A stretch of DNA of 64,000 nucleotides from positions 436,459 to 500,458 of the forward strand of contig NZ_CM001437.1 of NCBI RefSeq assembly GCF_000243275.1, given 5' to 3'. Below are positions 1,533-64,000 of the stretch, in pieces. A program made the translations under genes and the position numbers. The notes below the pieces were generated by a model, which searched no databases, was not told the DNA's origin, and saw only the letters and a list, made by a program, of their open reading frames with translations. The stretch comes from Myroides odoratus DSM 2801. GTDB taxonomy: Bacteria > Bacteroidota > Bacteroidia > Flavobacteriales > Flavobacteriaceae. How positions within the stretch are numbered: position 1 is the first letter of the stretch; every line of letters starts with the position of its first letter.

Positions 1533-1627
1533 TTCACGGGAGGAAAAATTTGTACTGATTGCAACCTCGGTAAAAAATGCTAAAGCAGAATATATTGTAT
1601 CTTCACTTTAGCCATTTCCTCTTTTTT
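1533..1627 (+). promoter_or_regulatory. Probable SAM-II riboswitch in the metK leader
   Basis: The aptamer spans roughly 1535-1588. It shows the order of conserved elements expected of SAM-II: P1 strand GGAGG (1539-1543), an ATTTG segment (1548-1552), TTGCAA (1559-1564), the P1 return strand CCTC, an A-rich linker, and GCTAAA (1579-1584). The last strand can instead pair with CTTTAGC (1606-1612) as a perfect 7-bp stem, followed by a T-run at 1620-1627. This gives two mutually exclusive folds. Its position before SAM synthetase fits feedback by SAM. The elements are seen directly; the class name is a match by eye. Confidence 0.7.
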
Positions 1628-2964: not shown

Positions 2965-3001
2965 AAAAAACGCTTAACCTTAAAAGGCTAAGCGTTTTTC
3001 T
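2965..3001 (+). terminator. Rho-independent terminator after metK
   Basis: Stem CGCTTAACC / GGCTAAGCG (one mismatch) with a TTAAAA loop, A-run on the left and T-run on the right. It can serve metK on the plus strand and the lectin-like operon on the minus strand. Confidence 0.85.
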
Positions 3002-3043
3002 TTTGAATCAAATTAACCAACTTACTATTATATTTTACTTTTT

Positions 3044-4555
3044 TTATTTTACTTTTTTCACCCCTTTATTGACCAACAAAGGCGGATTGCGGTAAAGCGG
3101 AATTTCATCCGTAAAATTTAACGTAACCGAAGCGGTTGGTGATCGATATTCTTCTGTACTAATATCTACTCCATTTGCTGGCTTTTTATTCTTTATATCA
3201 TAGTGAAATGTATGATTATCCCCTTGAAAATTTGGCACTGGACTAAAGGTTACTTCACCATTATTTATATTGTAGCTATATTCTCCAATATTTGGCACAA
3301 CTAATCGATGAGGATCGCTATTTACCACGTACGTTTTAGTTGCTTCATCAAGAATTTTAAAACGAAAAGAAGCAAAATCTAAAAATACCGTTGACGGACT
3401 TGGTGGATCAAAAATTTTAAATACATTGGTATCATATCCAAAGGCACTATACAATGGTTCACAAACAAAAGGTCTCGTTCGAATAACATTGGGAATACTA
3501 ATGTCTTGTACCACGGGTGAAAACGGCAGGGCGAGTGCTATGTTTCGAATATGCGCCCGAATAGATGCGTCTCCAGTTCCACCTGTAAACCCTATTTTCA
3601 TTGATGCAGGCATAGTCATACTCAACCTTCTATCTGGAATTGTCTCATTTGCTAATTGCTCAACATATCTAATTATTCCTGTTTTAGGTACAAAAAAATT
3701 TCTTACAACAGAAGAATCATAACTTCCATTCACAATATTTACAGAAATAAAGAAGCCTTGTTTTCTACTAGAATCATCTATTCCGGGAATAAAAGCGATT
3801 CTAATTTTTCGATACCCATCCTCTCCTGGAATTGCTACATCCTTACCGCTTCGAATTGCAAAACGCTTTCCAACAAGTCCACTTTGAGTACTTATAAATT
3901 TTCCATTATCAATATTCAGATAATAATTTAAATTTCGTACTGTATTTACAGCAAATAGAACAGGATAACCTTCATATAAATTATTAGGATTATGAGGTCC
4001 TCTCAACACGACAAAATTCCCATCATTATCCCCAGCGGTTCTTACTCCATTTCTGACTTCATTAGGATAGTTCATTGTTCTCTTATAACTACCATAAAGG
4101 TCTAAACCTAGACCAAACATACCTTTGGAAAAACCAGCAATATGACTACCATTTTTTTTTTGTGTATGCGCATATCCTAATGCTCCCCCTTTATCTCCAG
4201 TTTTAGGTTGAGTCTCATTAGCATCAAACAACACCATAGTGATACCATCCCCATATTTATCTCCTTCTTGTCTTCCTTGATCCAATCCAAATTCAAATTC
4301 TAAGATAAACCCCTTTTCTGTAGTAAAACTCAATTGATCTAAATAAATACCTACAAATTGATGTTGTCCATCTAATAGTTTTATTCCCTTTGAGGTATAG
4401 GTAACTAACCCAGGAGTACTCTCCCCTATCAACTTAAAACCATCTCTTTTCTGTCCTGAATTAAAGTAAGGATACTGAGCATAAAACAAGGTACTGTTCA
4501 ACCCCAATACCAACCATAGTAAAAAAAATATTTTGTTTCTTCGTTTTCTATTCAT
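3044..4555 (-). CDS. Secreted L-type-lectin-like protein
   Basis: An exported protein of about 503 residues starting MNRKRRNKIFF, with a basic N-region, a hydrophobic core and a cleavage-like site at FYAQ. The first half resembles a concanavalin-A-like (L-type lectin) sandwich: GFILEFEFGLDQ, a GDGITMVLFDA strand, GGALGYA, then FGLGLDLYG. The C-terminal third is a separate beta-rich part with paired Cys missing. The frame extends 15 residues upstream into the preceding gene, but the ATG at 4555 gives a proper signal peptide. It is the last gene of a four-gene operon and a clear paralogue of its upstream neighbour. Carbohydrate binding is inferred from the fold-like motifs only. Confidence 0.75.
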   Translation of the reverse strand: MNRKRRNKIFFLLWLVLGLNSTLFYAQYPYFNSGQKRDGFKLIGESTPGLVTYTSKGIKLLDGQHQFVGIYLDQLSFTTEKGFILEFEFGLDQGRQEGDKYGDGITMVLFDANETQPKTGDKGGALGYAHTQKKNGSHIAGFSKGMFGLGLDLYGSYKRTMNYPNEVRNGVRTAGDNDGNFVVLRGPHNPNNLYEGYPVLFAVNTVRNLNYYLNIDNGKFISTQSGLVGKRFAIRSGKDVAIPGEDGYRKIRIAFIPGIDDSSRKQGFFISVNIVNGSYDSSVVRNFFVPKTGIIRYVEQLANETIPDRRLSMTMPASMKIGFTGGTGDASIRAHIRNIALALPFSPVVQDISIPNVIRTRPFVCEPLYSAFGYDTNVFKIFDPPSPSTVFLDFASFRFKILDEATKTYVVNSDPHRLVVPNIGEYSYNINNGEVTFSPVPNFQGDNHTFHYDIKNKKPANGVDISTEEYRSPTASVTLNFTDEIPLYRNPPLLVNKGVKKVK

Positions 4556-36646: not shown

Positions 36647-37159
36647 ACCCAGTTTTTTCTTTCTTTAACATTTTTTTGTAAAAGTAAAGGTAAAATATAA
36701 ATCCGCCAATTTTTTACTCTCAAACACCTAAATCTCATCGCCTCACCCGCTCATCATCTATCTCATGGAATTATATTTGTTTTCGTATTCGATGAATATA
36801 TCTCACCTACTTAATATTGATTTTGGTGTTCGATGAATCTACACTGCGTTTCGATTTTCACTTCGTTCCGATTTTCACTGCGTTCCGATTTCACCATCTT
36901 CTCTCTCTTTCTTGTTCTATTTTCACCTTGATTTTTGCCTGATTTCCTTCATTTCCACTTAATTTTTCTAAACATTTATACTTATATTTGTAGCTGTTTT
37001 TTAGTAAAAAAAGCATTTTTTTATGCCTGCCAATATGATGCAGGTAATCTGATTTTTATTTTACTTCATCGAAAGAAGAATAAAACCTAAAGAACAAACG
37101 AGTACAAGGATTATCGCAAGACAGTTCGAAATTAATTTTAATCTCAAAACAATCGGATA
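36647..37159. other. Intergenic region with dispersed repeat and dapD promoter
   Basis: Contains CTCATCGCCTCACC-like low-complexity DNA (36730-36760), a 65-base dispersed repeat (36794-36858), and a TATATTTG -7 box (36983-36990). The dapD leader (about 36997-37159) includes a GCCTGC/GCAGGT hairpin (37026-37046). No gene is supported. Confidence 0.65.
36794..36858. repeat. Dispersed repeat shared with the Rhs spacer
   Basis: From GAATATATCTCACCTA through TGAATCTACACTGCGTTTCG this matches 61521-61585 at 62 of the first 64 positions. It therefore links a housekeeping intergenic region to the Rhs cassette region. CTGCGTTTCGATTT-like units are iterated just to its right. Confidence 0.85.
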
Positions 37160-50603: not shown

Positions 50604-51299
50604 CTATTTCAAAACCTTACTCCTTATTTCAGTTAAATCAAAGTATTCTTCTCTATAACTTTTTTCTGCCAATAAATTATTTAGAAAAACTAGATTCTCT
50701 TTATCATAATCAATTAATTCAGTTATAAAATCTAAGAATGACTGCTTACCTGTTATTCTATATAAAGAAATACTTGCTAAGATTTGTTCTGATTGAAAAT
50801 AATCCTTTGAATTCACAACGCTTTTAAAAGAACTAACGATTTCTTCTATATAATAATACTTAATATTATTAGCAATATAATGAATCGCAGCTAAAACAAT
50901 ATAGTTCTCATCTTTAGCATTCTTTTTTATTAAATTTAAAACCTTTAAATAATTAATATTCAAAGACAAATCTGTTGCAAAATATAATAGATCAGAAACA
51001 AACGCTGTATTTTTATGGTCTAAATTATCATTGATGAAGAGTTCTACATATGTTTTATCATTCTCATCAAATAAAATGTACTCCCTTAAAAATAAATCTA
51101 TTAAATCCTTATTTTTAAAACATAAGATTTGCTTTACTTCATTTAAATGCAGTTTAATATCTGAATAACAAAAGTCATGTATTATATCATAAGCCTCTTT
51201 CCAAGATAAATCATCTATTTTGTTTATTTTTTTTATGAAATCATCTTTTCTTATCTCCTTTACTATGTCTCGATCCTTTTTGTTGCGTTGATGTTTCAT
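50604..51299 (-). CDS. Candidate cytosolic immunity protein, helical repeat
   Basis: A 231-residue, Lys/Asp/Asn-rich, almost wholly helical protein with no signal peptide. The even spacing of helices (LSWKEAYDIIHDF, LFLREYILF, SDLLYFATDL, VLAAIHYIANN, ISLYRITGK) suggests a HEAT-like stack. Very AT-rich, unlike the chromosomal genes left of 49.8 kb. A cytoplasmic immunity protein for a nuclease-type toxin is plausible; no toxin is nearby. Confidence 0.55.
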   Translation of the reverse strand: MKHQRNKKDRDIVKEIRKDDFIKKINKIDDLSWKEAYDIIHDFCYSDIKLHLNEVKQILCFKNKDLIDLFLREYILFDENDKTYVELFINDNLDHKNTAFVSDLLYFATDLSLNINYLKVLNLIKKNAKDENYIVLAAIHYIANNIKYYYIEEIVSSFKSVVNSKDYFQSEQILASISLYRITGKQSFLDFITELIDYDKENLVFLNNLLAEKSYREEYFDLTEIRSKVLK

Positions 51300-52087: not shown

Positions 52088-52504
52088 TCATTTTCTATAT
52101 TTTATAAGCATGAATTTTCCATCAAAGCCATCTCCCTTCATAAATATTGTATCCTTATTATACTTTTCAATTATAAAAGAATCTACATCTACATTCATCT
52201 TCATTTTATCTGTATCTACATCCCATTCACCTTCAAAGGAACTCTCGATTAAATCGTCTTTTTTTTTATAATCTGTAGCTATTTGGTTCTTACTTTTTAA
52301 ATAAAATAATTGATATTTATTCTTTGAAACAAATAACATTTTATACCCTAAAAACTCATAAGTAACACTATCTTCTGAAGCATAATAATCCCAATATTCT
52401 GTTTTTCTTCCATTTTTATCTAATAAAATTTCCTCAATATCATTCTTTTTTTTACATGAAATAAACAAAAGAACATAAAATAAATAAACTATTATTCTTT
52501 TCAT
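52088..52504 (-). CDS. Candidate immunity lipoprotein
   Basis: A 138-residue lipoprotein with lipobox LFISC (Cys17 counted from the ATG at 52504; an ATG two codons upstream is also possible). The body has LLDKNGRKTEYWDYYASEDSVTYEFLGYK, an antiparallel beta-type domain. Its start overlaps the end of a decayed toxin tail (52508-52588), the usual order of toxin then immunity. No family recognised. Confidence 0.6.
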   Translation of the reverse strand: MKRIIVYLFYVLLFISCKKKNDIEEILLDKNGRKTEYWDYYASEDSVTYEFLGYKMLFVSKNKYQLFYLKSKNQIATDYKKKDDLIESSFEGEWDVDTDKMKMNVDVDSFIIEKYNKDTIFMKGDGFDGKFMLIKYRK

Positions 52505-52507
52505 AAG

Positions 52508-52588
52508 CATTTAAATTTTTCTACTTTTTTAAGAGCTCTAAGAGAATCTGCTTCATTATTTTTTCGCCTCCCATCTACAACCTAACTT
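52508..52588 (-). pseudogene. Decayed toxin C-terminal tail
   Basis: An open stretch of about 26 residues reads VVDGRRKNNEADSLRALKKVEKF before the stop TGA, which overlaps the start of the lipoprotein gene (TTATGA). Upstream of it the frame is closed by TAG. The basic, helical sequence looks like the last helix of a nuclease-type toxin domain (inference). A scrap of the Rhs spacer repeat (TTTGTGGATCTAAC) sits further upstream near 52650. Confidence 0.5.
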
Positions 52589-52783
52589 ATACAAGTTACC
52601 TCCTCTTGATTATTTAATGTAAATGCTTAGAGCATCTCTATTGCATTTCAATTTGTGGATCTAACACTACAATGCGGTTAGAATGAAAATTTAGCCCTTT
52701 GCCTTTATCAAATTAGTCAAAGACTTTTTCTAAATACGAGAAACAAATTAGATACTCATCCTCCTAGTTTGAAATTCCTTTTT

Positions 52784-53203
52784 TTAAAAATAGGAAGAAG
52801 CTATTATAGTTACGATATTTCCCTCTTTACCTTTTGTCCATACTTGTAATCCAATAGACTCAAACTCATAAACATACTGAGGTATATTATCATCTTCAAA
52901 ATCCAAACAATCTATTTTTCCAATAAATTTTTCTCCAGTATGTGAAATAAAATCTTCAATTTTCATTCCAATTAAATTTCTTCCTTTATACAACAACTCT
53001 TCATAGCAACCAATTTCCTCTATTAAACCATTTTCAACAAACAAAGTCATTCGAGGAAATTCAATTGAATAGTGAACAGTTGGTGCCGCTAAATCAGATG
53101 AATAATCACGAACTCCAAATGAATATTTCTTTAGGTAGTTATTTATCTTCAACTTAAACACAAAATCTCCTACTGACTGAAAAGGAATCAATATTACTCT
53201 CAT
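52784..53203 (-). CDS. Candidate cytosolic immunity protein
   Basis: A 139-residue cytoplasmic protein without signal peptide: MRVILIPFQSVGDFVFKLKINNYLKKYSFGV, then strands HYSIEFPRMTLFVENGLIEEIGCYEELLY and VYEFESIGLQVWTKGKEGNIVTII. Small alpha-beta immunity-like design. No family recognised and no toxin beside it. It is co-directional with and 26 bases from the next lipoprotein gene. Confidence 0.55.
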   Translation of the reverse strand: MRVILIPFQSVGDFVFKLKINNYLKKYSFGVRDYSSDLAAPTVHYSIEFPRMTLFVENGLIEEIGCYEELLYKGRNLIGMKIEDFISHTGEKFIGKIDCLDFEDDNIPQYVYEFESIGLQVWTKGKEGNIVTIIASSYF

Positions 53204-53229
53204 TATTATCTAGCTAAAAAATCATATTC

Positions 53230-53739
53230 TTATTTTGATGGCCAATTTGTAATAGTTGTATATTCCTTACAACTACAATCATTTTTTATCATTTCGTTCA
53301 ATACTAATTCTTGAAATCTTCTTTCAATCCTTTGTTGTTCTGATTTTTTTAAATCTTCAAACAGAAGCCATTGTCCAAATTTTGTTGTTTTCCTAAAAAC
53401 TGATCGTATCGAAACCCTTGCTACTTTTGTTTTTTCTTCACTAAATCTTAGTACTGTAACATAATACATCTCTTCTATCAAATCAGCATTGCCTTCAAAA
53501 TAAAAAATCTTCCCATTAAGAAAATGGTATCCTCGTTTTTCCCAATCATCAAATTCCTTCCATTTTTCAGGAATAGCTAGGTTTAAACGTCTTTCTTTAA
53601 AAGATTCTAAGCAATAATTTAATTCATTTTCACTACAATCAAATTCATAAACATACCCTCCTCCTAAAGTTCCTGCAATTTTATTATGGCAACTTATACA
53701 AAGGACCATTAAAAGTATAAACATCCAGCTTCTTCTCAT
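53230..53739 (-). CDS. Candidate immunity lipoprotein in dense cluster
   Basis: A 169-residue lipoprotein with lipobox LCISC (Cys17). The mature part reads YVYEFDCSENELNYCLESFKERRLNL and FLNGKIFYFEGNADLIEEMYY. No family recognised. Last member of a tight operon of seven genes (53.2-56.9 kb), five of them lipoproteins. Confidence 0.6.
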   Translation of the reverse strand: MRRSWMFILLMVLCISCHNKIAGTLGGGYVYEFDCSENELNYCLESFKERRLNLAIPEKWKEFDDWEKRGYHFLNGKIFYFEGNADLIEEMYYVTVLRFSEEKTKVARVSIRSVFRKTTKFGQWLLFEDLKKSEQQRIERRFQELVLNEMIKNDCSCKEYTTITNWPSK

Positions 53740-53753
53740 TTATCTTATCTAAT

Positions 53754-54260
53754 TTAAATACTACTCTCTATAGCGTATATTTTTTTTGTTCTTGTATCCA
53801 AAATAAACAGTTGAACTACTTCTGGGATTTCTAATGAAGGTTGATAATAAAAGGAATAATAAACCCAAGTATGTTCTACAAGTTGTCTTAATTCCTTTAA
53901 TTGTTGTGTTATTCTTTTATTTCCATCTTCATAGCTTAAACACAATAAAAACAGTTCTTCTAAGCCCTCCTCAGTAGGACCTTGTTTCCAATCTAACTTT
54001 TGCCATGAATCGGTTGTATTTCTACTTGGTAAAACTTTGTTTTTTAAATACAAAAAGTCCGCAACACTCCTTGGAGACAAACTATATTCTTCCAGTATAA
54101 ACCCCTCTCCAAATCCGCCAAACTGATGATAAGCATCCAAACATTTTATTTCTTTTGCCTTCATATTCAAAATGCAAAGTATATCAGATTGAAAAGCTTT
54201 TCTTTGACAGGACATACAAATCAGTATTCCTAAGCCATAGATCCAAATTTTATATCGCAT
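53754..54260 (-). CDS. Candidate immunity lipoprotein in dense cluster
   Basis: A 168-residue lipoprotein with lipobox ICMSC (Cys18). Mature part: ILCILNMKAKEIKCLDAYHQFGGFGEGF, followed by a helical LEELFLLCLSYEDGNKRITQQLKELRQLVEHT and a short beta end. No family recognised. It is 14 bases from the next gene, same operon. Confidence 0.6.
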   Translation of the reverse strand: MRYKIWIYGLGILICMSCQRKAFQSDILCILNMKAKEIKCLDAYHQFGGFGEGFILEEYSLSPRSVADFLYLKNKVLPSRNTTDSWQKLDWKQGPTEEGLEELFLLCLSYEDGNKRITQQLKELRQLVEHTWVYYSFYYQPSLEIPEVVQLFILDTRTKKIYAIESSI

Positions 54261-54270
54261 ACTGACTTAT

Positions 54271-54549
54271 TTATCCATCTATACTTAAAGCATAAAAAAT
54301 AGCTGCAATTCGCTTTAAATCATAAGCAACTGCATCATCCGTACGCAACAATCGCTTTACTTCCTCTTCATCAAAAGACAATTGCCCTAAAGACAATTGT
54401 TTAGGTTCCTCATATGGATTATAACGCGCTGCTCTCGGAATATCCCAATAGTAATCTTCAACTAACTCAATTTCATTTCCTCTACATGATTGAATTTCTG
54501 AAAGCACGCGTAGTGTTATTTGCTTTAATTCTTCTATATTAATTGCCAT
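54271..54549 (-). CDS. Small cytosolic protein in lipoprotein cluster
   Basis: A 92-residue acidic helical protein: MAINIEELKQITLRVLSEIQSCRG, ELVEDYYWDIP, then EEEVKRLLRTDDAVAYDLKRIAAIFYAL. No signal peptide, the only member of the cluster without one. It might be a cytoplasmic companion of the lipoproteins. No family recognised. Confidence 0.55.
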   Translation of the reverse strand: MAINIEELKQITLRVLSEIQSCRGNEIELVEDYYWDIPRAARYNPYEEPKQLSLGQLSFDEEEVKRLLRTDDAVAYDLKRIAAIFYALSIDG

Positions 54550-54591
54550 ATTTTATTTTGTATAAAAAGTAGTACAAATCACTAACTCCCC

Positions 54592-55323
54592 TTATTTTTC
54601 AAAACCATATCGATTTAAAATTCGATAATACTTTGGACCAAAATGGGCTTTTGACTGATAATCCCCTTGAGTAAGTAGTTCTATTTCATCCGGTTGAAGC
54701 AATCCTCCAAAATCACGAGCTTTATATAGTTCTAACAAATCAAATTCGTATACATTATTTACCTTTATTTCTCTAGTTCTTCTTTTCTTCTTTTCTCTAA
54801 CTAAAACGAAAAGACTTGGTGCTATTAAGTCCAATGTATCTTTTCCATTCACCCCTTTTAGATGATAATATCCTTTTTTGGAGGTAATTTCTGTTATACA
54901 TAAATCAATGATTACAAACTGGTATGCTTCAGAAAACAATTCTTTCTTATTTGTATAGGAACCGAATAAAGGTTCAACGGGAATTACATTTTCACTTGCC
55001 CCATTTTTAAGTTGTATTTCTTGCATTTCCTCATTCCAATACAACTGTTTTTTATTTAATTGATACCACTGTTTCCAATCTTTTAAATTGCGTTTAGTTA
55101 AGTAATAAATAATACCAATTGAAAAATCATGATCTACTTCAATCCCCGTTAATCGAATCATTTGAGTGATTTCATCCATTTGAAGCTCTCCTTTTCTTTG
55201 GTGAAAATCTTCAATCTTCTTATATCGTTCTTCAAAAACAAAACAGGCTTTGATATCAAAATCTTTGGCTGGTTTACAACTCATTAATAAACATAGGAGT
55301 ACAAGGGTATATAAAGATTTCAT
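54592..55323 (-). CDS. Candidate immunity lipoprotein in dense cluster
   Basis: A 243-residue lipoprotein with lipobox LLMSC (Cys16), the largest of the dense cluster. The body is rich in Tyr, Lys and Glu, with HDFSIGIIYYLTKRNLKDWKQWYQLNKKQ and NVYEFDLLELYKARDFGGLLQPDEI. No family recognised. Gap to the next gene is 42 bases. Confidence 0.58.
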   Translation of the reverse strand: MKSLYTLVLLCLLMSCKPAKDFDIKACFVFEERYKKIEDFHQRKGELQMDEITQMIRLTGIEVDHDFSIGIIYYLTKRNLKDWKQWYQLNKKQLYWNEEMQEIQLKNGASENVIPVEPLFGSYTNKKELFSEAYQFVIIDLCITEITSKKGYYHLKGVNGKDTLDLIAPSLFVLVREKKKRRTREIKVNNVYEFDLLELYKARDFGGLLQPDEIELLTQGDYQSKAHFGPKYYRILNRYGFEK

Positions 55324-55364
55324 CCGTACTATTTTAGCTGTTTGTTATACAAAAACATTGTTTC

Positions 55365-56039
55365 TCAAGGTTGTTCAAATCCAAATTTGATAGTTGTAAT
55401 CACATCATGAACTAAAGTGCAAATGAGAAAGTAACTAGGCATATTGTATTGTTTTAAAAAAGGATTATGCATCCCATCATTTATTCGATATATAATTTGT
55501 TTTCCTTCTTGCGTGTATTTTTCTCCTTTTATTTCAATTAATTCCTCTAATGAGAGTCCTAATTTTAAACCACTTTCTAGTCCAAAAAACGCCTGATCTA
55601 CTTTTAAAGCCTCCTTTTTGTACTCCAAGTCCTGTATATATCCAATTTCAAAACAATCAAAAGCATAGCGTGTTGAGCCTTCATATTGATAAGCAAATAA
55701 ATAACTTGTATCATCTTGATTAACAAAAATAAAAACGGGGCTTTCTCTTACATTTTTAACTAATTTTTCTCCCGTAAATTGAGGTGCAAATTGAAAAACA
55801 GCCTCGTGATTACGCAACGTAAGATAATTAAGCACCAGTGTATCAGGCACAAAAGATATTGTTTCCGAACCGATTTGTAAAAAAGTGGAATCTACCTGTC
55901 TATTAGTTGCTATTTCATTTTTTGTGTCTCCTTTATCCCGTGATTTTGTCCAACAAGATGCTACTAAAACACTACAACTAATCCAAAGAAGAAATTTTAC
56001 TCTTTGCTTTACAATACTCCTATTTATCATCCAATACAA
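55365..56039 (-). CDS. Candidate immunity lipoprotein in dense cluster
   Basis: A lipoprotein of up to 224 residues (lipobox LVASC, Cys29 from the first ATG; the ATG at 56030 also works). Its start overlaps the stop of the upstream gene. Mature part includes GSETISFVPDTLVLNYLTLRNHEAVFQF and ALKVDQAFFGLESGLKLGLSLEELIEIKGEKYTQEG. No family recognised. Confidence 0.58.
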   Translation of the reverse strand: MYWMINRSIVKQRVKFLLWISCSVLVASCWTKSRDKGDTKNEIATNRQVDSTFLQIGSETISFVPDTLVLNYLTLRNHEAVFQFAPQFTGEKLVKNVRESPVFIFVNQDDTSYLFAYQYEGSTRYAFDCFEIGYIQDLEYKKEALKVDQAFFGLESGLKLGLSLEELIEIKGEKYTQEGKQIIYRINDGMHNPFLKQYNMPSYFLICTLVHDVITTIKFGFEQP

Positions 56040-56391
56040 AATTAGAAGCTATCCATTGTTCACCCTTTTTGTAACTTAGTTGTACATGAACTAAACATCC
56101 TGCTTTTAGACTTACTTTATATAATTTTTGTTCATAATAATCCTCTGATTCTTCATAAGAACCTTTTTCGTAAATCATTAAAAAATCATTTTTAAAATAG
56201 TATTCACCGTAGTAAGTTTCTTCCCTTTCACAGCTATAAAATTCAAATGTATCTGCTGTCAAAAAAGAATATTGATTTACACAATCCTTACTTATGCTAC
56301 ATTGCCATACTGTTCCTTTTAAGTCAAATTTAGTCTCTTGTGCAAAAGTATGTAGTCCGCATAAAAACAAAAACAAGAGTCGTATTCTCAT
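56020..56391 (-). CDS. Small secreted protein in lipoprotein cluster
   Basis: A 123-residue exported protein with a cleavable signal peptide (ending at HTFAQ) and no lipobox. The mature part is beta-rich with four Cys: FDLKGTVWQCSISKDCVNQYSFL, FEFYSCEREETYYGEYYF, LKAGCLVHVQLSYKKGEQW. It overlaps its upstream neighbour by four bases. No family recognised. Confidence 0.58.
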   Translation of the reverse strand: MRIRLLFLFLCGLHTFAQETKFDLKGTVWQCSISKDCVNQYSFLTADTFEFYSCEREETYYGEYYFKNDFLMIYEKGSYEESEDYYEQKLYKVSLKAGCLVHVQLSYKKGEQWIASNFVLDDK

Positions 56392-56924
56392 CCTTCATTA
56401 TGTTTAAAAAAATCAACTAATTCTCCTTCTTTCACTGCATATTTCGATACATCAACGTGTTGATCATTTTTCAACCAATAGATCAACTTTTGTTCATGAT
56501 AATAGAAAGTTTGAACTACACTATCCTTAATTTCAACTGAATTAGCAACACCCAAAGGAGTTTCATACGTCATCTCTATTTCTTCAATTAGCAATGGCAT
56601 TCCCTTTTCCTGATATAACACAAAATGTTTTCTTCCTGTTTCTCCATAATAATCCAGCTCTTTTTTTACTGTATCTTCTTTGATGTAGAAGTATTTTATC
56701 CTACCTCCTTCCGCAGTTTCAAAGCTATCTCGTTGGCTAGTTTCCATCTTGTCTTTTAAAGATTCTACCTCTAATTTATAGACGTCTATTTGTTTCACCC
56801 TTTCCATTGTATCGATTGTCTGATATGCTATTAGTTGAGAAAAGGTTACTTGTTTTTTTACTTTGCCACATCCTATTCCGATAAAAAGGAATAGAAGTGT
56901 ACTTAATAGCCAATTGTATTTCAT
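56388..56924 (-). CDS. Candidate immunity lipoprotein, first of dense cluster
   Basis: A 178-residue lipoprotein, start ATG 56924 (MKYNWLLSTL), lipobox IGIGC (Cys19). It reads KVKKQVTFSQLIAYQTIDTMERVKQIDVYKLEVESLKDKMETSQRDSF, then beta strands, ending VKEGELVDFFKHNEG. First in the operon of seven closely spaced genes. No family recognised. Confidence 0.58.
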   Translation of the reverse strand: MKYNWLLSTLLFLFIGIGCGKVKKQVTFSQLIAYQTIDTMERVKQIDVYKLEVESLKDKMETSQRDSFETAEGGRIKYFYIKEDTVKKELDYYGETGRKHFVLYQEKGMPLLIEEIEMTYETPLGVANSVEIKDSVVQTFYYHEQKLIYWLKNDQHVDVSKYAVKEGELVDFFKHNEG

Positions 56925-56936
56925 ACGTATACCCAT

Positions 56937-57263
56937 TCAAACCCATTAAAAAAGAAAAAAACCACTTTATTCTTTGTGAAAAGGTAAGCATATTTTTTGA
57001 AAAAATTAACATTCACAATTCTATAAAAAAACCTTTCAAGAAATTGCAATAATCAAACAAGGCAATCTAGAAATAAAGATTGCCTTGTTTATATTTTATC
57101 TTTAAATAATTCAAAACGATTATTTTATCACCAAGTCTCCTACTGGGGGAAATAGGATTATTATTGCTATCATTATTAATTTTTGAATGTTCTTCTCCTT
57201 TTCTTATTCTTGGTGTTATTGTTAACTAAAAAAATGATCTAATTTGGAAGGTTGGGGTTGGTG
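56937..57263. other. Intergenic region with terminator palindrome
   Basis: Holds the promoter region of the lipoprotein cluster and a palindrome, CAAACAAGGCAATCT / AGATTGCCTTGTTT (57054-57091). A diverged terminator-like repeat (TTTGGAAGGTTGGGGT near 57244-57258) follows the next gene. No gene is supported. Confidence 0.6.
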
Positions 57264-57761
57264 CTAAAGAGGTCTTTGATAATCCCCTCCAACTTCGTTA
57301 AAAAAAACCATAGATTTTGATAAATCGATAGGATATTCTTTTTTTATTTTATTATCAACAATATAAAACTCAATTTTATTAAAAAACTCTTCTCTTCTTT
57401 CTCTATCATTTAAAACCTTATCATCTAAACTACAATTCAATTCATCAACATAAATACATATGCTTAATTTATTATCGTCAATTCTATAAAAATTATAGAA
57501 ATAGCATTGTAGATCTTCTGTTTTTAAATAAAAACCGATCTCCATTGATTTTACTAAATTTAAAATCTCATTATCAATGATAAGATCTAAACAAATATTG
57601 TTGGGAAGAGAGTTATAAATTCTAATTTCTTCTATTTTTCCATAATATCGTTGATTGGGCGCCTTTTTGGAAATAACAAAATAATCATTATGCTTACACC
57701 CTATAATAAGAAATAAGAAAACTATAACTATTCCTATTCTATAAAAACGTACATAATTCAT
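57264..57761 (-). CDS. Candidate immunity lipoprotein with truncated toxin upstream
   Basis: A 165-residue lipoprotein with lipobox LIIGC (Cys22). The body is beta-rich: YYGKIEEIRIYNSLPNNICLDLIIDNEIL, MEIGFYLKTEDLQCYFYNFYRI, SICIYVDELNCSLDD. A surviving tail of a toxin coding frame (57766-57886) ends four bases before this gene starts, the toxin-then-immunity order. No family recognised. Confidence 0.62.
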   Translation of the reverse strand: MNYVRFYRIGIVIVFLFLIIGCKHNDYFVISKKAPNQRYYGKIEEIRIYNSLPNNICLDLIIDNEILNLVKSMEIGFYLKTEDLQCYFYNFYRIDDNKLSICIYVDELNCSLDDKVLNDRERREEFFNKIEFYIVDNKIKKEYPIDLSKSMVFFNEVGGDYQRPL

Positions 57762-57890: not shown

Positions 57891-57943
57891 AAAATAACAC
57901 CACCCCTTTGATCCGTTTTGGAAGGTTGGGGTGGTGTTATTTT
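57891..57943 (-). terminator. Long terminator stem after the cassette 1 immunity gene
   Basis: Perfect 16-bp stem AAAATAACACCACCCC (57891-57906) / GGGGTGGTGTTATTTT (57928-57943). The loop holds the shared core GATCCGTTTTGGAAGGTT. Same family as those near 60.25 and 62.46 kb. The truncated toxin tail of the next unit abuts it. Confidence 0.85.
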
Positions 57944-57949
57944 ATATAT

Positions 57950-58675
57950 TTACTTCACATTTAAATCTAATTTAAAAAAAATAGGCTTCAAATCTATCAT
58001 ATCATTTGAATTAGATTGTTTATTAGGTAACAAAACAAAATATCCATTTATTGAATGTTTACCTTTATATTTTGGAATAATTTCAAAAGAATAGTAATCC
58101 TCCCCAAATGATGGCAAACTATCTTTCTTTAATTCTTTAAAATAACAATAATTAGCATTGCTTATTGATTCTCTAAAAAAATACAATGCTATATTTTTTT
58201 CATACAACGTCTTATCATAATTCACTTTTATATCTATATCTATAGGCATCTTTTCTCTTAAATTTATTGTATCATAACTAAATTCAAACCAATACCCTTT
58301 ATCATTCTGTGGTTCACCATCAACGAAATACTGTATTGTATTAATATGATGTACGCCTTCGCAATAATTAACATAATTATAAATACTATCAAGCTGTTTT
58401 TTACTCTCAAAAAACCAATCTCCTATTCGTACAAATTTATATGTCCATCCTCTACTTACTTCGTCTTTAGAATTTTTGATTATAGCATATACAGAGTCAG
58501 ATTTAGAATCCAAAAAATATCTTTTCAATAGTATATCTTCCTTAAATACAACTTCTGATTTTTTAAATATATAGTTATCATCTATCTCTCTATATCCTGT
58601 TTTTTTTTTATTATCACATGCATAGATTAATCCAATTAATCCAATTATCCAATATTTAATACTATTTTTTTCCAT
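57950..58675 (-). CDS. Candidate immunity lipoprotein of Rhs cassette 1
   Basis: A 241-residue lipoprotein with lipobox LIYAC (Cys20). Its start overlaps the end of the Rhs C-terminal toxin gene by 14 bases, so it is translated with it, as expected for an immunity protein. Body: WFESKKQLDSIYNYVNYCEGVHHINTIQYFVDG and ISNANYCYFKELKKDSLPSFGEDYYSFEI. The membrane location suggests that the toxin acts in the periplasm or at a membrane. No family recognised. Confidence 0.68.
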   Translation of the reverse strand: MEKNSIKYWIIGLIGLIYACDNKKKTGYREIDDNYIFKKSEVVFKEDILLKRYFLDSKSDSVYAIIKNSKDEVSRGWTYKFVRIGDWFFESKKQLDSIYNYVNYCEGVHHINTIQYFVDGEPQNDKGYWFEFSYDTINLREKMPIDIDIKVNYDKTLYEKNIALYFFRESISNANYCYFKELKKDSLPSFGEDYYSFEIIPKYKGKHSINGYFVLLPNKQSNSNDMIDLKPIFFKLDLNVK

Positions 58676-59384
58676 TACTTCTAATTATATAGCCATTAAA
58701 ATCTAAAACATTCTCTTTAATTGAATCTCTAAACTTACCATTATCCAAATTATTAAACTGTTGCCTGTCTAATGATAATGGAACTGAATCATTATATCCT
58801 CTAAAAAGCAATATATTATATTTATCTCTTACATCCTCTCCTAAAGAAACACCTCCACTAAACCCTCCTAACTCACTTTGCCCATAACTCAGTCCTTTAA
58901 AAAAACTATTAAATCCAGACAAACTCGCTCCACCTGCTCCTATAATAATTGGCATATCTAAAGCATTAATATGTTTATCCATCCCAATAATACTACCTTT
59001 TTTACGTCCATTATCTTCTGTTCCTCCACCCCATATCTTATAACCACCTAAAATACTGTTTTGCCAATACATTAAACCAACTCCGTTTTTAAAATGGTTA
59101 TACCCCGATTTCTCTTTATTCTTCTCCCAATCCGAAGCTAATTTATCGGCTCCTCGCTGTACATTAATTACAATATCATCTAATATAGTTCCCATTTCTG
59201 CCACTGCCTTATCTACAATATTTCCAAGTTTAACAGGTTGTTTTTGAGGATTTCCCTCTCCTGATTGTTCCGCACTCATCCCCGTTGGGTCAATCAAATT
59301 AATCGGATTGTTGTGTACATAATGATATGGTGTCCAACCTGGAAAATCTTCCGCCAACGGGTCCACACTCAAAAACACACTCAT
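58662..59384 (-). CDS. Rhs C-terminal toxin module, cassette 1
   Basis: A 240-residue protein. Residues 1-36 are the end of an Rhs core (SVFLSVDPLAEDFPGWTP, YHYVHNNPINLIDPTGM), after which toxin domains begin. The frame stays open upstream to 59426 (TGYYYYGARYYDPT) and is then closed by TAA, so no full Rhs is attached. The unique part contains HFKNGVGLMYWQNSILGGYKIWGGG and Gly-rich segments ending in FNGYIIRSNGKK; I do not recognise the activity. Probably silent until recombined with a complete rhs gene, or expressed from an internal start. Confidence 0.72.
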   Translation of the reverse strand: MSVFLSVDPLAEDFPGWTPYHYVHNNPINLIDPTGMSAEQSGEGNPQKQPVKLGNIVDKAVAEMGTILDDIVINVQRGADKLASDWEKNKEKSGYNHFKNGVGLMYWQNSILGGYKIWGGGTEDNGRKKGSIIGMDKHINALDMPIIIGAGGASLSGFNSFFKGLSYGQSELGGFSGGVSLGEDVRDKYNILLFRGYNDSVPLSLDRQQFNNLDNGKFRDSIKENVLDFNGYIIRSNGKK

Positions 59385-59426
59385 CGTCGGATCGTAATAA
59401 CGCGCACCATAGTAATAGTAACCTGT

Positions 59427-60180
59427 TTACCTCCTCGTTATTATTTTTTTAAGACTCGGTGAATCTCCTTCGTCGATTTGTGGATCTAACTCTGCACTTC
59501 GTGCGGTTCGTTCAACTAAAGCTACTCGCTTTAGTCTCCGAAATCATTAAACTTATACACATTATCATAATTACTGTTGTTGTGTTCCACCATCAGCTCT
59601 CCTCACGAAGTGCACCGAATACCAAAACAAATAAAATCATTAATGAGGTAAATAGTAGGTAACCATAGTAATGCGTTGGTATTCCATTGATGTCTGTAAG
59701 GTAAGAAGAATTCTCTCTCATGAAGCCAAAATAAATACATACAATCTTTTGATTTTCATTTTACTGTTTTTGTACTTTTCAATTGTAGTATTTGCCTTCA
59801 ATGTAAAAAATAGTCTTTGTAGAAACACATTGTTTATCGGCACTGTCGTAGCCTTCGACTCACTGCGTTCCTCTTTACTGCTCCACCGACGATAAAATAC
59901 TACCGTTTATGTCATTCTGTTTGAAGTGAAGAATCGCATCGGTCACTCAACTTTAGCTTTACATATTGTAGATTTATAGGATGCGACTCTTCGTTCCTCA
60001 GAGTGATACTTTGTGGTGAGAGCAAATTCATCTCTTTTATAGTAAACCACTGCCCAAAACCCAACTACTACTTTTACTACTCCACTGTTGCTTTTTTGTA
60101 GGCTATGGCTGTACTTTATGTTTTGAAACACTTCTACCATTGTCGTTGATTAAAGTCGAAGCCTTTTTTAATAGTGTAAC
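59427..60180 (-). repeat. Inter-cassette spacer 1 with broken Rhs core
   Basis: Nearly the same DNA as 61483-62330 and 63753-64000. On the minus strand it holds disrupted pieces of an Rhs core: SSYLTDINGIPTHYYGYL (ending near 59712-59660), then ELMVEHNNSNYDNVYKFN, with short extra sequences between and after them that bring stops. It also has CTAAAGC/GCTTTAG and GCACTTCGTGC hairpins. No complete gene is present; the rest up to 60280 is simple repeat DNA and the terminator. Confidence 0.8.
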
Positions 60181-60227
60181 AGTGGTAGGGTGTTTCTTTT
60201 CCCACTAAACAATACCCCCACTAAATA

Positions 60228-60270
60228 ACAAAACCCCAACGATCCGTTTTGGAAGGTTGGGGTGGTTGTT
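60228..60270 (-). terminator. Conserved terminator after cassette 2 immunity
   Basis: Stem CCCCAAC (60234-60240) / GTTGGGG (60256-60262) with core GATCCGTTTTGGAAG. Near-identical copy 62441-62480. Confidence 0.85.
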
Positions 60271-60280
60271 TACTAAGATA

Positions 60281-60694
60281 TTAATTGCAAAAATACAAAC
60301 CTTTAACATTTTGTGCTGTAAATAGCTCCCATATTCCATTTTCAGGTTCTAAGCAAATAAGAGTATTATCGGAATAGTAATAACATCCATTAAAATTAGT
60401 AGGATTGATTTTTATTCCATCAATTGTTGGTGTAAAATCTTTTTCTGACTTTAATTGAAATTTATATTTATTTCCCTTTTTTATTTTTTCACAATCATTC
60501 ACTCTATTTTTAATTTCCTTACTAATAATTTTATATAATGTATCCTCCTTAGAAGCATAAATCATATACCAATTTCCTTTTTTCTTTATTTTCTCTATCA
60601 AATACCCTTCTACATTAGTTTCTGTTACAGTAATTTTTTTCCCTACACATGAACTAAATAAAACTATAAAAATTATAAAAATATATTTTTTCAT
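60281..60694 (-). CDS. Candidate immunity lipoprotein of Rhs cassette 2
   Basis: A 137-residue lipoprotein with lipobox LFSSC (Cys16). Its first base is the last base of the upstream Rhs toxin gene, so translation is coupled. Body: TVTETNVEGYLIEKIKKKGNWYMIYASKEDTLYKIISKEIKN and NFNGCYYYSDNTLICLEPENGIW. It probably neutralises the neighbouring metallopeptidase-like toxin at the membrane or in the periplasm (inference). Confidence 0.68.
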   Translation of the reverse strand: MKKYIFIIFIVLFSSCVGKKITVTETNVEGYLIEKIKKKGNWYMIYASKEDTLYKIISKEIKNRVNDCEKIKKGNKYKFQLKSEKDFTPTIDGIKINPTNFNGCYYYSDNTLICLEPENGIWELFTAQNVKGLYFCN

Positions 60695-61440
60695 TATCTA
60701 TTTATTGATTGAAGATTAACTTTTCCTTTTCTTCCATTAACAAACCATTCTACACTTTTTATATTAGTAGGTATTGCTCCTCCGTTATAAGGTATTCTTT
60801 TCCCTTTATCATCATAATATGCTTCATGAATTTTTCCACTTTCTTTTGTTGCTCTATTATGCGCTATTGAATAAGTACTTCCCGCAACACCTGATTTAGG
60901 TGATGATACTCCATTTTTCTTTGCTATTAAACCTCCTTGATAACCTTCTGTCACTTCATGTAACACATCTTTACCATTATTGTTGAATGCATCACTTATT
61001 TTTCCTAAAACAATAGGATTGATTTCCTGAGTTGCTACAACAGTGTTTCCATTATCACTTTTAGTTACAGTATTTCCTGAATACGATCCACCAACATACA
61101 AATCACCATCCTGTGTAAACATAGTGTTTTCTGCATATACATTTAAAGTTACAGAAGTATCGTCTAAAGCATTTATAAGGGCTTGAGAATCACTTGATAC
61201 TTTTTTATTATGGTTTAAAGTATAACCAACTTTTCCACTGTCATCCATCGATAAAGTCAAATCGTTTTTAACAGATTTTTGTAATTCATCAAAAGCTTCT
61301 TGCTTCTTTTCACCTTTTATAATTACTTCTTCCCCTATCATTCCTGTTGGGTCTGTAAACATAATCGGGTTATTTCCAACATACGAATACGGTTCCATAG
61401 TTTGTTCCGCCAACGGGTCCACACTCAAAAATACACTCAT
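60694..61440 (-). CDS. Rhs C-terminal toxin module, cassette 2, metallopeptidase-like
   Basis: A 248-residue protein. The Rhs-core end here reads MEPYSYVGNNPIMFTDPTGM, different from that of cassettes 1 and 3. The unique part contains LHEVTEGYQGG (His161, Glu162, Glu165) and AHNRA (His194), an arrangement like zincin-type metallopeptidase sites, though not a perfect HExxH. Upstream the frame is open to 61482 (TGYYYYGARYYDPT). The activity is inferred from this motif alone. It is followed by a coupled lipoprotein gene. Confidence 0.72.
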   Translation of the reverse strand: MSVFLSVDPLAEQTMEPYSYVGNNPIMFTDPTGMIGEEVIIKGEKKQEAFDELQKSVKNDLTLSMDDSGKVGYTLNHNKKVSSDSQALINALDDTSVTLNVYAENTMFTQDGDLYVGGSYSGNTVTKSDNGNTVVATQEINPIVLGKISDAFNNNGKDVLHEVTEGYQGGLIAKKNGVSSPKSGVAGSTYSIAHNRATKESGKIHEAYYDDKGKRIPYNGGAIPTNIKSVEWFVNGRKGKVNLQSINR

Positions 61441-61482
61441 CGTCGGATCGTAATAACGCGCACCATAGTAATAGTAACCTGT

Positions 61483-62330
61483 TTACCTCCTCTTTATTAT
61501 TTTATGTGTAAGGACTCGGTGAATATATCTCACCTATTTAATATTGGTTTTGGTGTTCGATGAATCTACACTGCGTTTCGATTTCCACTGCGTTTCGATT
61601 TGTGGGTCTAATTCTGCACTTCGTGCGGTTCGTTCAACTAAAGCTACTCGCTTTAGTCTCCGAAATCATTAAACTTATACACATTATCATAGTTACTATT
61701 GTTGTGTTCTACCATCAACTCTCCTCACGCAGTGCACCGAATACCAAAACAAATAAAATCATTAATGAGGTAAATGGTAGGTAACCATAGTAATGCGTCG
61801 GCACTCCATTGATGTCTGTAAGGTAAGAAGAATTCTCTCTCATGAAGCCAAAATAAACGCATACAATCTTTTTATTTTCGTTTAGCTGTTTTTGTACTTT
61901 GCAATTGTAGTCTTTAGTTTAATGTAAAAAGTAGTATTTCAAACTACAATTATTTATCGACACTGTCGCAGCCTTCGACTCACTTCGTTCCTCTTTACTA
62001 CTCCATAGACGATAAACTACTTTTAAAACTATAATATAAATACATTGCTACAACCATTTGTTTTTATTGCAATAGATTACGTACTGCAAAACACTTTTTA
62101 AATCAATTGTACGCCTTTAAATTGTAGTCTACGTTGTAATTGTTTGCTATTATAGCGCTAAAAAAGCATTTCCCCTTTTGTCATACTGAACGTAGTGAAG
62201 TAATTGCCCAAAACCCAACTACTCTTTTTACTACTCCATTGTTGCTTTTTTGTAGTCTTCGGCTGTACTTTATGTTTTGAAACACTTTACCATTGTCGTT
62301 GAATAGTCGAAGCCTTTTTTAATGGTGTAA
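61483..62330 (-). repeat. Inter-cassette spacer 2 with broken Rhs core
   Basis: Copy of spacer 1 with the same disrupted Rhs-core pieces, plus an extra insert near 61510-61600. That insert includes the 65-base repeat also seen at 36794-36858. Stretches around 62140-62330 match 60030-60180. No complete gene. Confidence 0.8.
61521..61585. repeat. Dispersed repeat shared with dapD upstream region
   Basis: GAATATATCTCACCTATTTA through CTACACTGCGTTTCG. It differs from 36794-36858 at only two of the first 64 positions. Confidence 0.85.
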
Positions 62331-62420
62331 CGGTGGTGGGGTGTTTTATTTGGTTTACGGTGGACGGTTTACTGTGTACAGTTTTGATTCTCCTTACATT
62401 GAATAATACCTCTGTAAACC

Positions 62421-62480
62421 GTTAACAGTAAACTGTTAACTAAAAACCCCAACGATCCGTTTTGGAAGGTTGGGGTGGTG
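62421..62480 (-). terminator. Conserved terminator after cassette 3 immunity
   Basis: CCCCAAC (62447-62453) / GTTGGGG (62469-62475), preceded by the perfect palindrome GTTAACAGT-AA-ACTGTTAAC (62421-62440). The stretch before it (62340-62440) shares GTTTACGG repeat DNA with 49861-49940. Confidence 0.85.
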
Positions 62481-62482
62481 TT

Positions 62483-63001
62483 TTATTCTTTGTCAATGAC
62501 GACTACCTTTTTTGTTACCCTTACTTCATCTTCTATCCATCTAATTAAATTTTCTCCATTTTCATCTTTTCTATTTAAATCAATAAAAACAGCGTCATTA
62601 ATAATACCATCTATATAATAGTCACCTTTAGTAGGGAATGAAATGTCATAAATTGGTATTAATCTATTATCAATTGCTCCAAATGTATCAGTAACAACTT
62701 TTTTTAAATGAACGATATTTTCTTTTAATTGATTAGTGACTACTAAAGTTACAAAAACATATCTGTTTTTTTGCTTATCTCCAAATTTCTCTATTATAGA
62801 ATCAAAATTACTAACATAATTAATTTTACCATCATAGGAGCTATTTGCATAAACTGTATCAGGAAATTCTATATTATAATCTATAAAATTATCAATTTTA
62901 GATGTCTTAGATTTTTCATTTACCTTATTATGTTCTATTTTTTTACAACCAAAAAATAATAAAAAAATAATACTATATAAAGTTATTTTAAATGTTTTCA
63001 T
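62483..63001 (-). CDS. Candidate immunity lipoprotein of Rhs cassette 3
   Basis: A 172-residue lipoprotein with lipobox LFFGC (Cys19), starting one base after the toxin gene stop. Lys/Glu-rich linker, then FIDYNIEFPDTVYANSSYDGKINYVSNFDSII and a beta-type core ending VRVTKKVVVIDKE. Pattern of a periplasmic or outer-membrane beta-domain (IgG-like). No family recognised. Confidence 0.66.
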   Translation of the reverse strand: MKTFKITLYSIIFLLFFGCKKIEHNKVNEKSKTSKIDNFIDYNIEFPDTVYANSSYDGKINYVSNFDSIIEKFGDKQKNRYVFVTLVVTNQLKENIVHLKKVVTDTFGAIDNRLIPIYDISFPTKGDYYIDGIINDAVFIDLNRKDENGENLIRWIEDEVRVTKKVVVIDKE

Positions 63002-63002
63002 T

Positions 63003-63710
63003 TTATCTTATTTTACTATTAACACGTATTGAATCTCTTTTATCTAATTGTTTAACAAAATCCTCATTTCCTTCATTAATTACTGTATCCTTTACTGCTT
63101 TGTGTACCCTATTTTTATTATAAGCATCCCCTTTAACTACTGAATAAACCGATCTACTCACAGTGGTACTTTTTGATTTGGTGGACATTGGTAAAATATT
63201 TACAGATTCTTCGGATGTATTTCTTTTAATACCTTCATCTTTAAAATAACTCAATACTTTATTCATTAAAGCATAAAAAGCATTTACATCACTATCTCCT
63301 ACTTCAATAGATCCTTGCCCCCTATCTCTTCCTATAGCACTATCCATAGGGTCTGCTCCCATTCCCCAAACCATTACACCATCTTGTTTATTACTTCCTC
63401 TCTTATTAAAATCAGCAATAACATTCCCATTTACTGTAATTTGTCGAGTTGAGCCATCCATTACCAAATGGTCAGTTTTATTCTCCCCATAACTTTGATC
63501 ACTATAACTGTATCCTAAATTAGTATGTCCTTTAACATTTTTACTTCCATCAATCCAAGTAACCTTTTTGGTTTCATTATTCATATACCAATCTTCTCCT
63601 TTCATCCCCGTTGGGTCAATCAAATTAATCGGATTGTTGTGTACATAATGGTATGGTGTCCAACCTGGAAAATCTTCCGCCAACGGGTCCACACTCAAAA
63701 ACACACTCAT
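63003..63710 (-). CDS. Rhs C-terminal toxin module, cassette 3
   Basis: A 235-residue protein with the same Rhs-core end as cassette 1 (DFPGWTPYHYVHNNPINL, then IDPTGM), followed by a linker typical of Bacteroidota Rhs proteins (EDWYMNNETKKVTWIDG, NLGYSYSDQSYGENKTDH). A unique end follows (MGADPMDSAIGRDRGQGSIEVGD, VKGDAYNKNRVHKAVKDTVIN). I do not recognise the catalytic domain. The frame is open upstream to 63752, then closed by TAA. It is coupled to a lipoprotein gene. Confidence 0.72.
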   Translation of the reverse strand: MSVFLSVDPLAEDFPGWTPYHYVHNNPINLIDPTGMKGEDWYMNNETKKVTWIDGSKNVKGHTNLGYSYSDQSYGENKTDHLVMDGSTRQITVNGNVIADFNKRGSNKQDGVMVWGMGADPMDSAIGRDRGQGSIEVGDSDVNAFYALMNKVLSYFKDEGIKRNTSEESVNILPMSTKSKSTTVSRSVYSVVKGDAYNKNRVHKAVKDTVINEGNEDFVKQLDKRDSIRVNSKIR

Positions 63711-63752
63711 CGTCGGATCGTAATAACGCGCACCATAGTAATAGTAACCTGT

Positions 63753-64000
63753 TTACCTCCTCGTTATTATTTTTTTAAGACTCGGTGAATCTCCTTCGTC
63801 GATTTGTGGATCTAACTCTGCACTTCGTGCGGTTCGTTCAACTAAAGCTACTCGCTTTAGTCTCCGAAATCATTAAACTTATACACATTATCATAGTTAC
63901 TGTTGTTGTGTTCTACCATCAACTCTCCTCACGCAGTGCACCGAATACCAAAACAAATAAAATCATTAATGAGGTAAATGGTAGGTAACCATAGTAATGC
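63753..64000 (-). repeat. Inter-cassette spacer 3, cut by the window
   Basis: Third copy of the spacer block with the same broken Rhs-core pieces as 59427-60180 and 61483-62330. It runs off the window at 64000, where either another cassette or the full rhs gene is expected. Confidence 0.8.

Follow-up and report, generated by a model that had tools for sequence, protein, structure and literature searches.

The last kilobases of a 64,000-nucleotide stretch of the Myroides odoratus DSM 2801 genome (bases 436459-500458 of 4.30 Mb; hereafter, the window) raise the question of what short ends of Rhs proteins, each fused to a different C-terminal domain and followed by a small gene, are doing without a full-length rhs gene to carry them. 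We find that they form part of an array comprising six or more orphan Rhs tips, each paired with a likely immunity gene, and that in M. odoratus XSfan, a sister strain, the locus includes a full-length rhs gene, where the present assembly has none. We consider it probable that the array is what remains of a reserve of spare tips and their antidotes. Below, the unique C-terminal domain is called the tip and the gene downstream its partner; M1, M2 and M3 denote the modules in the window and M5, M6 and M7 those past position 64000, the number M4 being skipped because of runs of N.

Our recheck of open reading frames (ORFs) and junctions upheld the first-pass annotation of the window, which had described three minus-strand modules, each consisting of a short Rhs-core end joined to a unique tip, a partner gene and a hairpin (Table 1). 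Tip and partner are separated by 1 base in M1 and overlap by 1 base in M2 and by 14 bases in M3, again as first described. In all six modules the partner gene lies directly downstream of the tip, with gaps or overlaps of no more than 14 bases, and the tip ORFs, at 235 to 314 residues, fall far below full rhs length and lack the export part. The Rhs core model TIGR03696 matches all six tip ORFs; in M1-M3 the match comprises the first ~36 residues and covers only the last part of the model. M2 (33.5 bits, cut-off 32.5), M5 and M7 score above the cut-off and the other three below it, including M1 (29.5 bits) and M3 (29.3 bits). The 25 bases upstream of the tip ATG are identical in M1-M3 and are core coding sequence, and what had been taken for a spacer upstream of the tips is partly Rhs core sequence broken by short inserts. 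An array of modules with a common core end and paired downstream genes is thus present at this locus.

The partners, judged by eye, all begin with an export or membrane segment. The proposal that the immunity candidates are lipoproteins held for M1-M3, and M7 also bears the signature; it does not extend to M5, whose partner starts with a signal-like segment that lacks a lipobox cysteine, or to M6, whose partner is a short membrane protein. As for the tips of M1-M3, neither Pfam nor NCBIfam gave a match above cut-off other than the Rhs core model, and PHROG gave nothing better than E 0.07; a housekeeping identity was rejected on these grounds. Residues H161, E162, E165 and H194 of the M2 tip, for which a fold in common with YbeY-type or zincin metalloenzymes was considered, are invariant across 27 aligned sequences. 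The M7 tip reaches 19.9 bits against Peptidase M91 (PF14891; cut-off 25) and is not counted as a member, and the predicted structure of M3 was unusable (predicted local distance difference test score, 41).

A hairpin closes the window modules, and its folding against shuffled sequences gave z values of -4.6, -4.9 and -5.9 for the three copies. Those of M1 and M2 are identical across the 29 bases searched. Allowing up to three mismatches, we found eight sites genome-wide and none with a reversed control, and all eight lie directly 3' of a partner-type gene in this genome, in agreement with the single terminator family first suggested. Past position 64000, M5, M6 and M7, each with its partner, are followed by a lone lipoprotein-like gene, two genes whose products have 205 and 121 residues, and a tamB-like gene. 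Runs of exactly 100 N flank M5 (L009:460-559 and 2989-3088); these are probably scaffold gaps at repeats, and because they cross the array, the number and order of its modules are uncertain.

The main rhs gene, which the first-pass annotation had placed just past position 64000, is not there in this assembly: at least three modules and then tamB follow, and a search of the assembly revealed no matching full-length gene. A 500-residue SpvB part of the full-length type, which has a match in 42 of 299 genus genomes, has none in this one. This genome's other full-length Rhs frames have core ends just 33 to 38% identical to the cassette core, and we rejected them as recombination partners. A gene with a matching core at this locus in a related genome had likewise been anticipated, and XSfan has it. 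XSfan scaffold 3 is syntenic with the array on both sides (92.8% over 9.8 kb on the tamB side; 88.9% over 8.4 kb on the opposite side). The flanks enclose a 617-residue frame, a full-length Rhs frame, its partner, an M6 cassette whose core is intact, and a further cassette that is interrupted. The full-length frame, of ~3,597 residues, is placed between tamB and the cassettes, and its core end is of this array's type (76% identical to M7 over 117 residues, tip start included). A position downstream of a same-core main gene, which we treat as a usual rather than a defining trait of orphan modules, is therefore absent here and present at the syntenic XSfan locus. The giant proteins of genome G072 and of XSfan (scaffold 4) combine SpvB, TcdB-middle and RHS repeat domains.

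Three neighbours of these genes deserve mention in their own right. The XSfan 617-residue frame (L099:16233-18083, +), directly before the full-length Rhs gene, is 26% identical over 486 residues (E 2e-27) to a 595-residue protein preceding the G072 gene and is possibly a secretion partner. A gene that by eye resembles tyrosine recombinases adjoins the M6 cassette in XSfan (L094:5844-7103, scaffold 3). In G072, the full-length Rhs gene and its partner are directly followed by L063:14945-15418 (+), whose product we take, by eye, to be like REP-associated transposases.

Comparison with XSfan also resolved, for one module, the unit of exchange between strains, whose edges are the core end and the partner gene's end. 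At the protein level, the two strains share 97.8% identity in the M6 tip and 98.8% in its partner. From the last core piece to the core end, 18 of 147 bases differ, as opposed to 15 of 963 from the core end to the end of the partner (Fisher p 1e-8), beyond which similarity falls. With the core end 88% and tip plus partner 98% identical, the pairs move as units. Synonymous divergence (dS) from XSfan is 0.063 for the M6 tip and 0.345 for tamB, so the M6 pair moved after the strains had split; M6 is also found behind two kinds of core. For exchange through the shared core, the evidence is comparative and comes from this one module of the six.

Other genomes also support the first reading, in which a flavobacterium-type genome carries orphan tip-immunity cassettes that undergo exchange in their shared core. 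The tip of the G072 full-length gene, together with its lipoprotein, corresponds to an orphan cassette in genome G058 (76% over 238 and 70% over 172 residues). Of 397 family genomes, seven have the M2 tip, the present one among them, and three of its eight matches lie in full-length frames (1,568, 1,547 and 1,789 residues) that belong to other genera; genome G616 also has it as a 303-residue frame about 6 kb away. Among five genes that follow M2-type tips elsewhere, two, in two other genera, are clear relatives of the M2 partner (E 3e-30 and 2e-11). A homolog of the M1 tip is present in XSfan, and a partner stands beside an M1-type tip there (L086:12497-12979) and in G058 (L066).

We suggest that the tips of this array are probably silent: stop-bearing inserts interrupt the core end in four of the six modules, all six are without an export or delivery part, and the genome retains no full-length gene of this kind with which they could recombine. 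The partner genes are likely still expressed and would protect against related strains firing those tips. A tip would be reactivated only if a full-length gene were acquired from a relative and recombined with it within the shared core.

Several observations weigh against this account. Every tip ORF has a start codon, making direct translation possible, and the core ends of M5 and M7 are uninterrupted, with ORFs of 295 and 314 residues; the inserts therefore cannot be the sole cause of silence. The ratio of non-synonymous to synonymous divergence (dN/dS) is 0.40 to 0.53 for the M1 tip, M1 partner and M3 partner, indicating weak constraint. Three of the five genes next to M2-type tips are just weak relatives of the M2 partner (E 0.004 to 0.04). 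The M1 and M3 tips were not found on any full-length gene: M3-like tips occur in three of 398 genus genomes, including this one, always in frames of 226 to 299 residues, and within the length range that was searched the databases contain seven relatives of the M1 tip, of which this genome contributes one. Finally, the two 100-N gaps leave the array incomplete and could still hide a full gene.

The array could instead be a decaying graveyard without present function, its genes kept just by slow loss, which we regard as improbable. Such decay would fit the missing main gene, the departure of the second-array tip L055:7038-7580 from M3 near its end, and the M5 tip match in Myroides sp. 1354, which has shrunk to the last 57 residues. 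The M5 partner at that same 1354 locus, however, remains intact, with 95% identity and a dN/dS of 0.14. Five further partner genes compared with relatives (that of M7 and four lone ones) gave values of 0.20 to 0.36, the four lone partners holding 0.25 to 0.36; some of these dN/dS comparisons have dS above 0.9 and hence are rough. The transfer of M6 after the strain split also speaks against mere decay.

Less probable still is that the modules are small stand-alone toxins, each translated from a start codon of its own and acting within the cell or beyond it independently of any full Rhs protein. The start codons themselves, the longer open core ends of M5 and M7 and tip dN/dS values below 1 would all suit this idea, but no export signal was seen on the tips, the identical core-coding stretch before the ATG in M1-M3 is not an evolved start region, and related tips sit on full-length proteins elsewhere.

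The inserts that break the core ends were read by alignment to the intact core ends of M5 and M7. I1 and I2, of 47 bases each and at fixed codon boundaries, occur in M1, M2, M3, M6 and one cassette of the second array, together with a third insert (I3) of ~51 bases or longer. In our searches such inserts turned up solely in cassettes of this clade. Stops occur in every frame within 300 bases upstream of the tip in M1, M2, M3 and M6, and in M1-M3 an in-frame stop lies 14 codons ahead of the internal tip ATG. Related inserts, at the same or another boundary of this core, are found in WP-1, XSfan, 1354 and G058. I1 has five copies in this genome (four exact, one with one mismatch), and a looser I1 pattern has 14 copies in four of 299 genus genomes, six of them here, all 14 within Rhs core ends. 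In a contig collection that may omit DSM 2801, a 28-base core of I2 was found in three named Myroides genomes only, as five copies, again all in Rhs core ends. Given this confinement of I1 and I2, we rejected the inserts as a general genome repeat. A dispersed repeat of ~80 bases does exist, in 59 pieces genome-wide (e.g., 36789-36870, -), and among the inserts just the long I3 contains part of it. Movement by a resident REP-type transposase was rejected, the genome having one broken Pfam Y1_Tnp remnant only. Seven full-length genes whose core was read contained no inserts, a comparison that is partly circular, as these genes were chosen as long open frames; a 9-base I3 probe had a chance match in one of them about 5 kb before the core (L064:7418).

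We offer as a tentative and rather doubtful idea that such site-specific inserts, mostly of 47 bases and at up to four fixed codon boundaries, mark and lock displaced Rhs cassettes in this clade, full-length genes being free of them. The lock would silence stored tips while sparing an uninterrupted core beside the tip for recombination, and the array would continue to serve as an immunity library once the main gene had been lost. The two insert-free modules of the six, and the circularity noted above, count against it.

Across the 57 bases that separate I1 from I2, a comparison of seven interrupted copies gave eight synonymous and no non-synonymous changes (P about 3e-6, transition/transversion weight 2). 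An eighth copy outside that count (L092:502) has two replaced residues and the core pieces neighbouring this stretch vary in residues, so the synonymous-only pattern is no proof of translation. That the ribosome bypasses the inserts, or that they are cut from the message, so that interrupted cassettes are expressed, might be read from this pattern and from the equal 47-base length and fixed codon boundaries of I1 and I2, but is very improbable given those replacements, the lack of a full export part upstream in this genome, the failure of I1 to fold better than shuffles and the chance that the synonymous changes predate the inserts.

Orphan Rhs arrays are already known; the variant here has outlived its main gene. 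Among the orphan rhs-CT/rhsI modules of enterobacteria (PMC3967940, PMC3150448), those of Salmonella LT2 likewise consist of a short core fragment and a variable tip after DPxG with a partner directly downstream, modules stand singly or several in a row, and tips recur on full-length Rhs proteins in other strains. Unlike those modules as described there, the present ones have no main gene, have full-length relatives that are ~3,500-residue SpvB/TcdB/Rhs proteins, and combine export or membrane starts on all partners with fixed short inserts in most core ends. Orphan cdiA-CT/cdiI pairs of contact-dependent inhibition (CDI) systems also form long arrays (eleven pairs in E. coli EC869; PMC3150448) in which exchange homology starts at a motif that precedes the tip. 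Production of immunity in the absence of the matching toxin, likely here, would be a further likeness; in the E. coli EC93 CDI array the orphan immunity protein is made and the orphan toxin apparently is not (PMC3150448). They differ in their carrier protein and are described downstream of cdiBAI, whereas no main gene is left here. The silent mafB-CT cassettes of Neisseria (PMC4287609) similarly store alternative C-termini near immunity genes, and one C-terminus can be a cassette in one strain and part of the full gene in another; the carrier is unrelated, and silence was inferred there from a missing start codon and here also from inserted stops. Among the papers listed, no title or opening of an abstract concerned such an array in Myroides, although a published account may nonetheless exist. 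The usual explanation of orphan toxin arrays is that they supply spare tips to a main gene of the same genome. Because this locus can be compared between sister strains that possess or lack such a gene, and several partner genes look well kept, it becomes directly testable whether arrays serve offence or protection.

Table 1. Features of the modules and adjoining genes, in window coordinates
Feature	Description	Length	Positions	Strand
M1 tip ORF	core end (to DPTGM) + unique tip	235 aa	63003..63710	-
M1 partner	likely immunity lipoprotein	172 aa	62483..63001	-
M1 hairpin	with U run		62447..62475	-
M1 insert I1		47 bases	63929..63975	-
M1 insert I2		47 bases	63824..63870	-
M1 I3 region	terminates in in-frame stop 14 codons ahead of tip ORF start		63753..63809	-
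M2 tip ORF	core end + tip	248 aa	60694..61440	-
M2 partner	likely immunity lipoprotein	137 aa	60281..60694	-
M2 hairpin			60234..60262	-
M2 insert I1			61725..61771	-
M2 insert I2			61620..61666	-
M2 insert I3	long form, including part of dispersed repeat		61483..61603	-
M3 tip ORF	core end + linker + tip	240 aa	58662..59384	-
M3 partner	likely immunity lipoprotein	241 aa	57950..58675	-
M3 hairpin	right arm altered, without U run		57903..57931	-
M3 insert I1			59603..59649	-
M3 insert I2			59498..59544	-
M3 I3 region			59427..59483	-
Small genes after M3	ten genes, several lipoprotein-like		52088..57761	-

The ten small genes that follow M3 likely encode immunity proteins but have no tips beside them. 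By eye, an export segment is missing from two (54271-54549 and 52784-53203). Four have relatives in Myroides sp. 1354, at identities of 57 to 77%, and a relative of the gene at 52088-52510, 36% identical, sits paired with a tip in G058. A second cassette array lies at about 144-150 kb of the genome (L055, 140000-156000) and contains M1-like and M3-like tips with another insert pattern, its M1-like cassette being 71% identical to that of the window. A further cassette remnant (L060:3164-4894; genome 3642663-3644393) comprises a core end and tip together with small genes, a partner of the M1 type and a copy of the hairpin. Two genes related to each other (50604-51299, -, and L009:8434-9051, -; 33.5% over 179 residues, E 2e-26) stand close to the two ends of the main array. 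Elsewhere in the window, a SAM-II riboswitch occupies 1534-1593 (+), at 57.8 bits (gathering threshold, 44).

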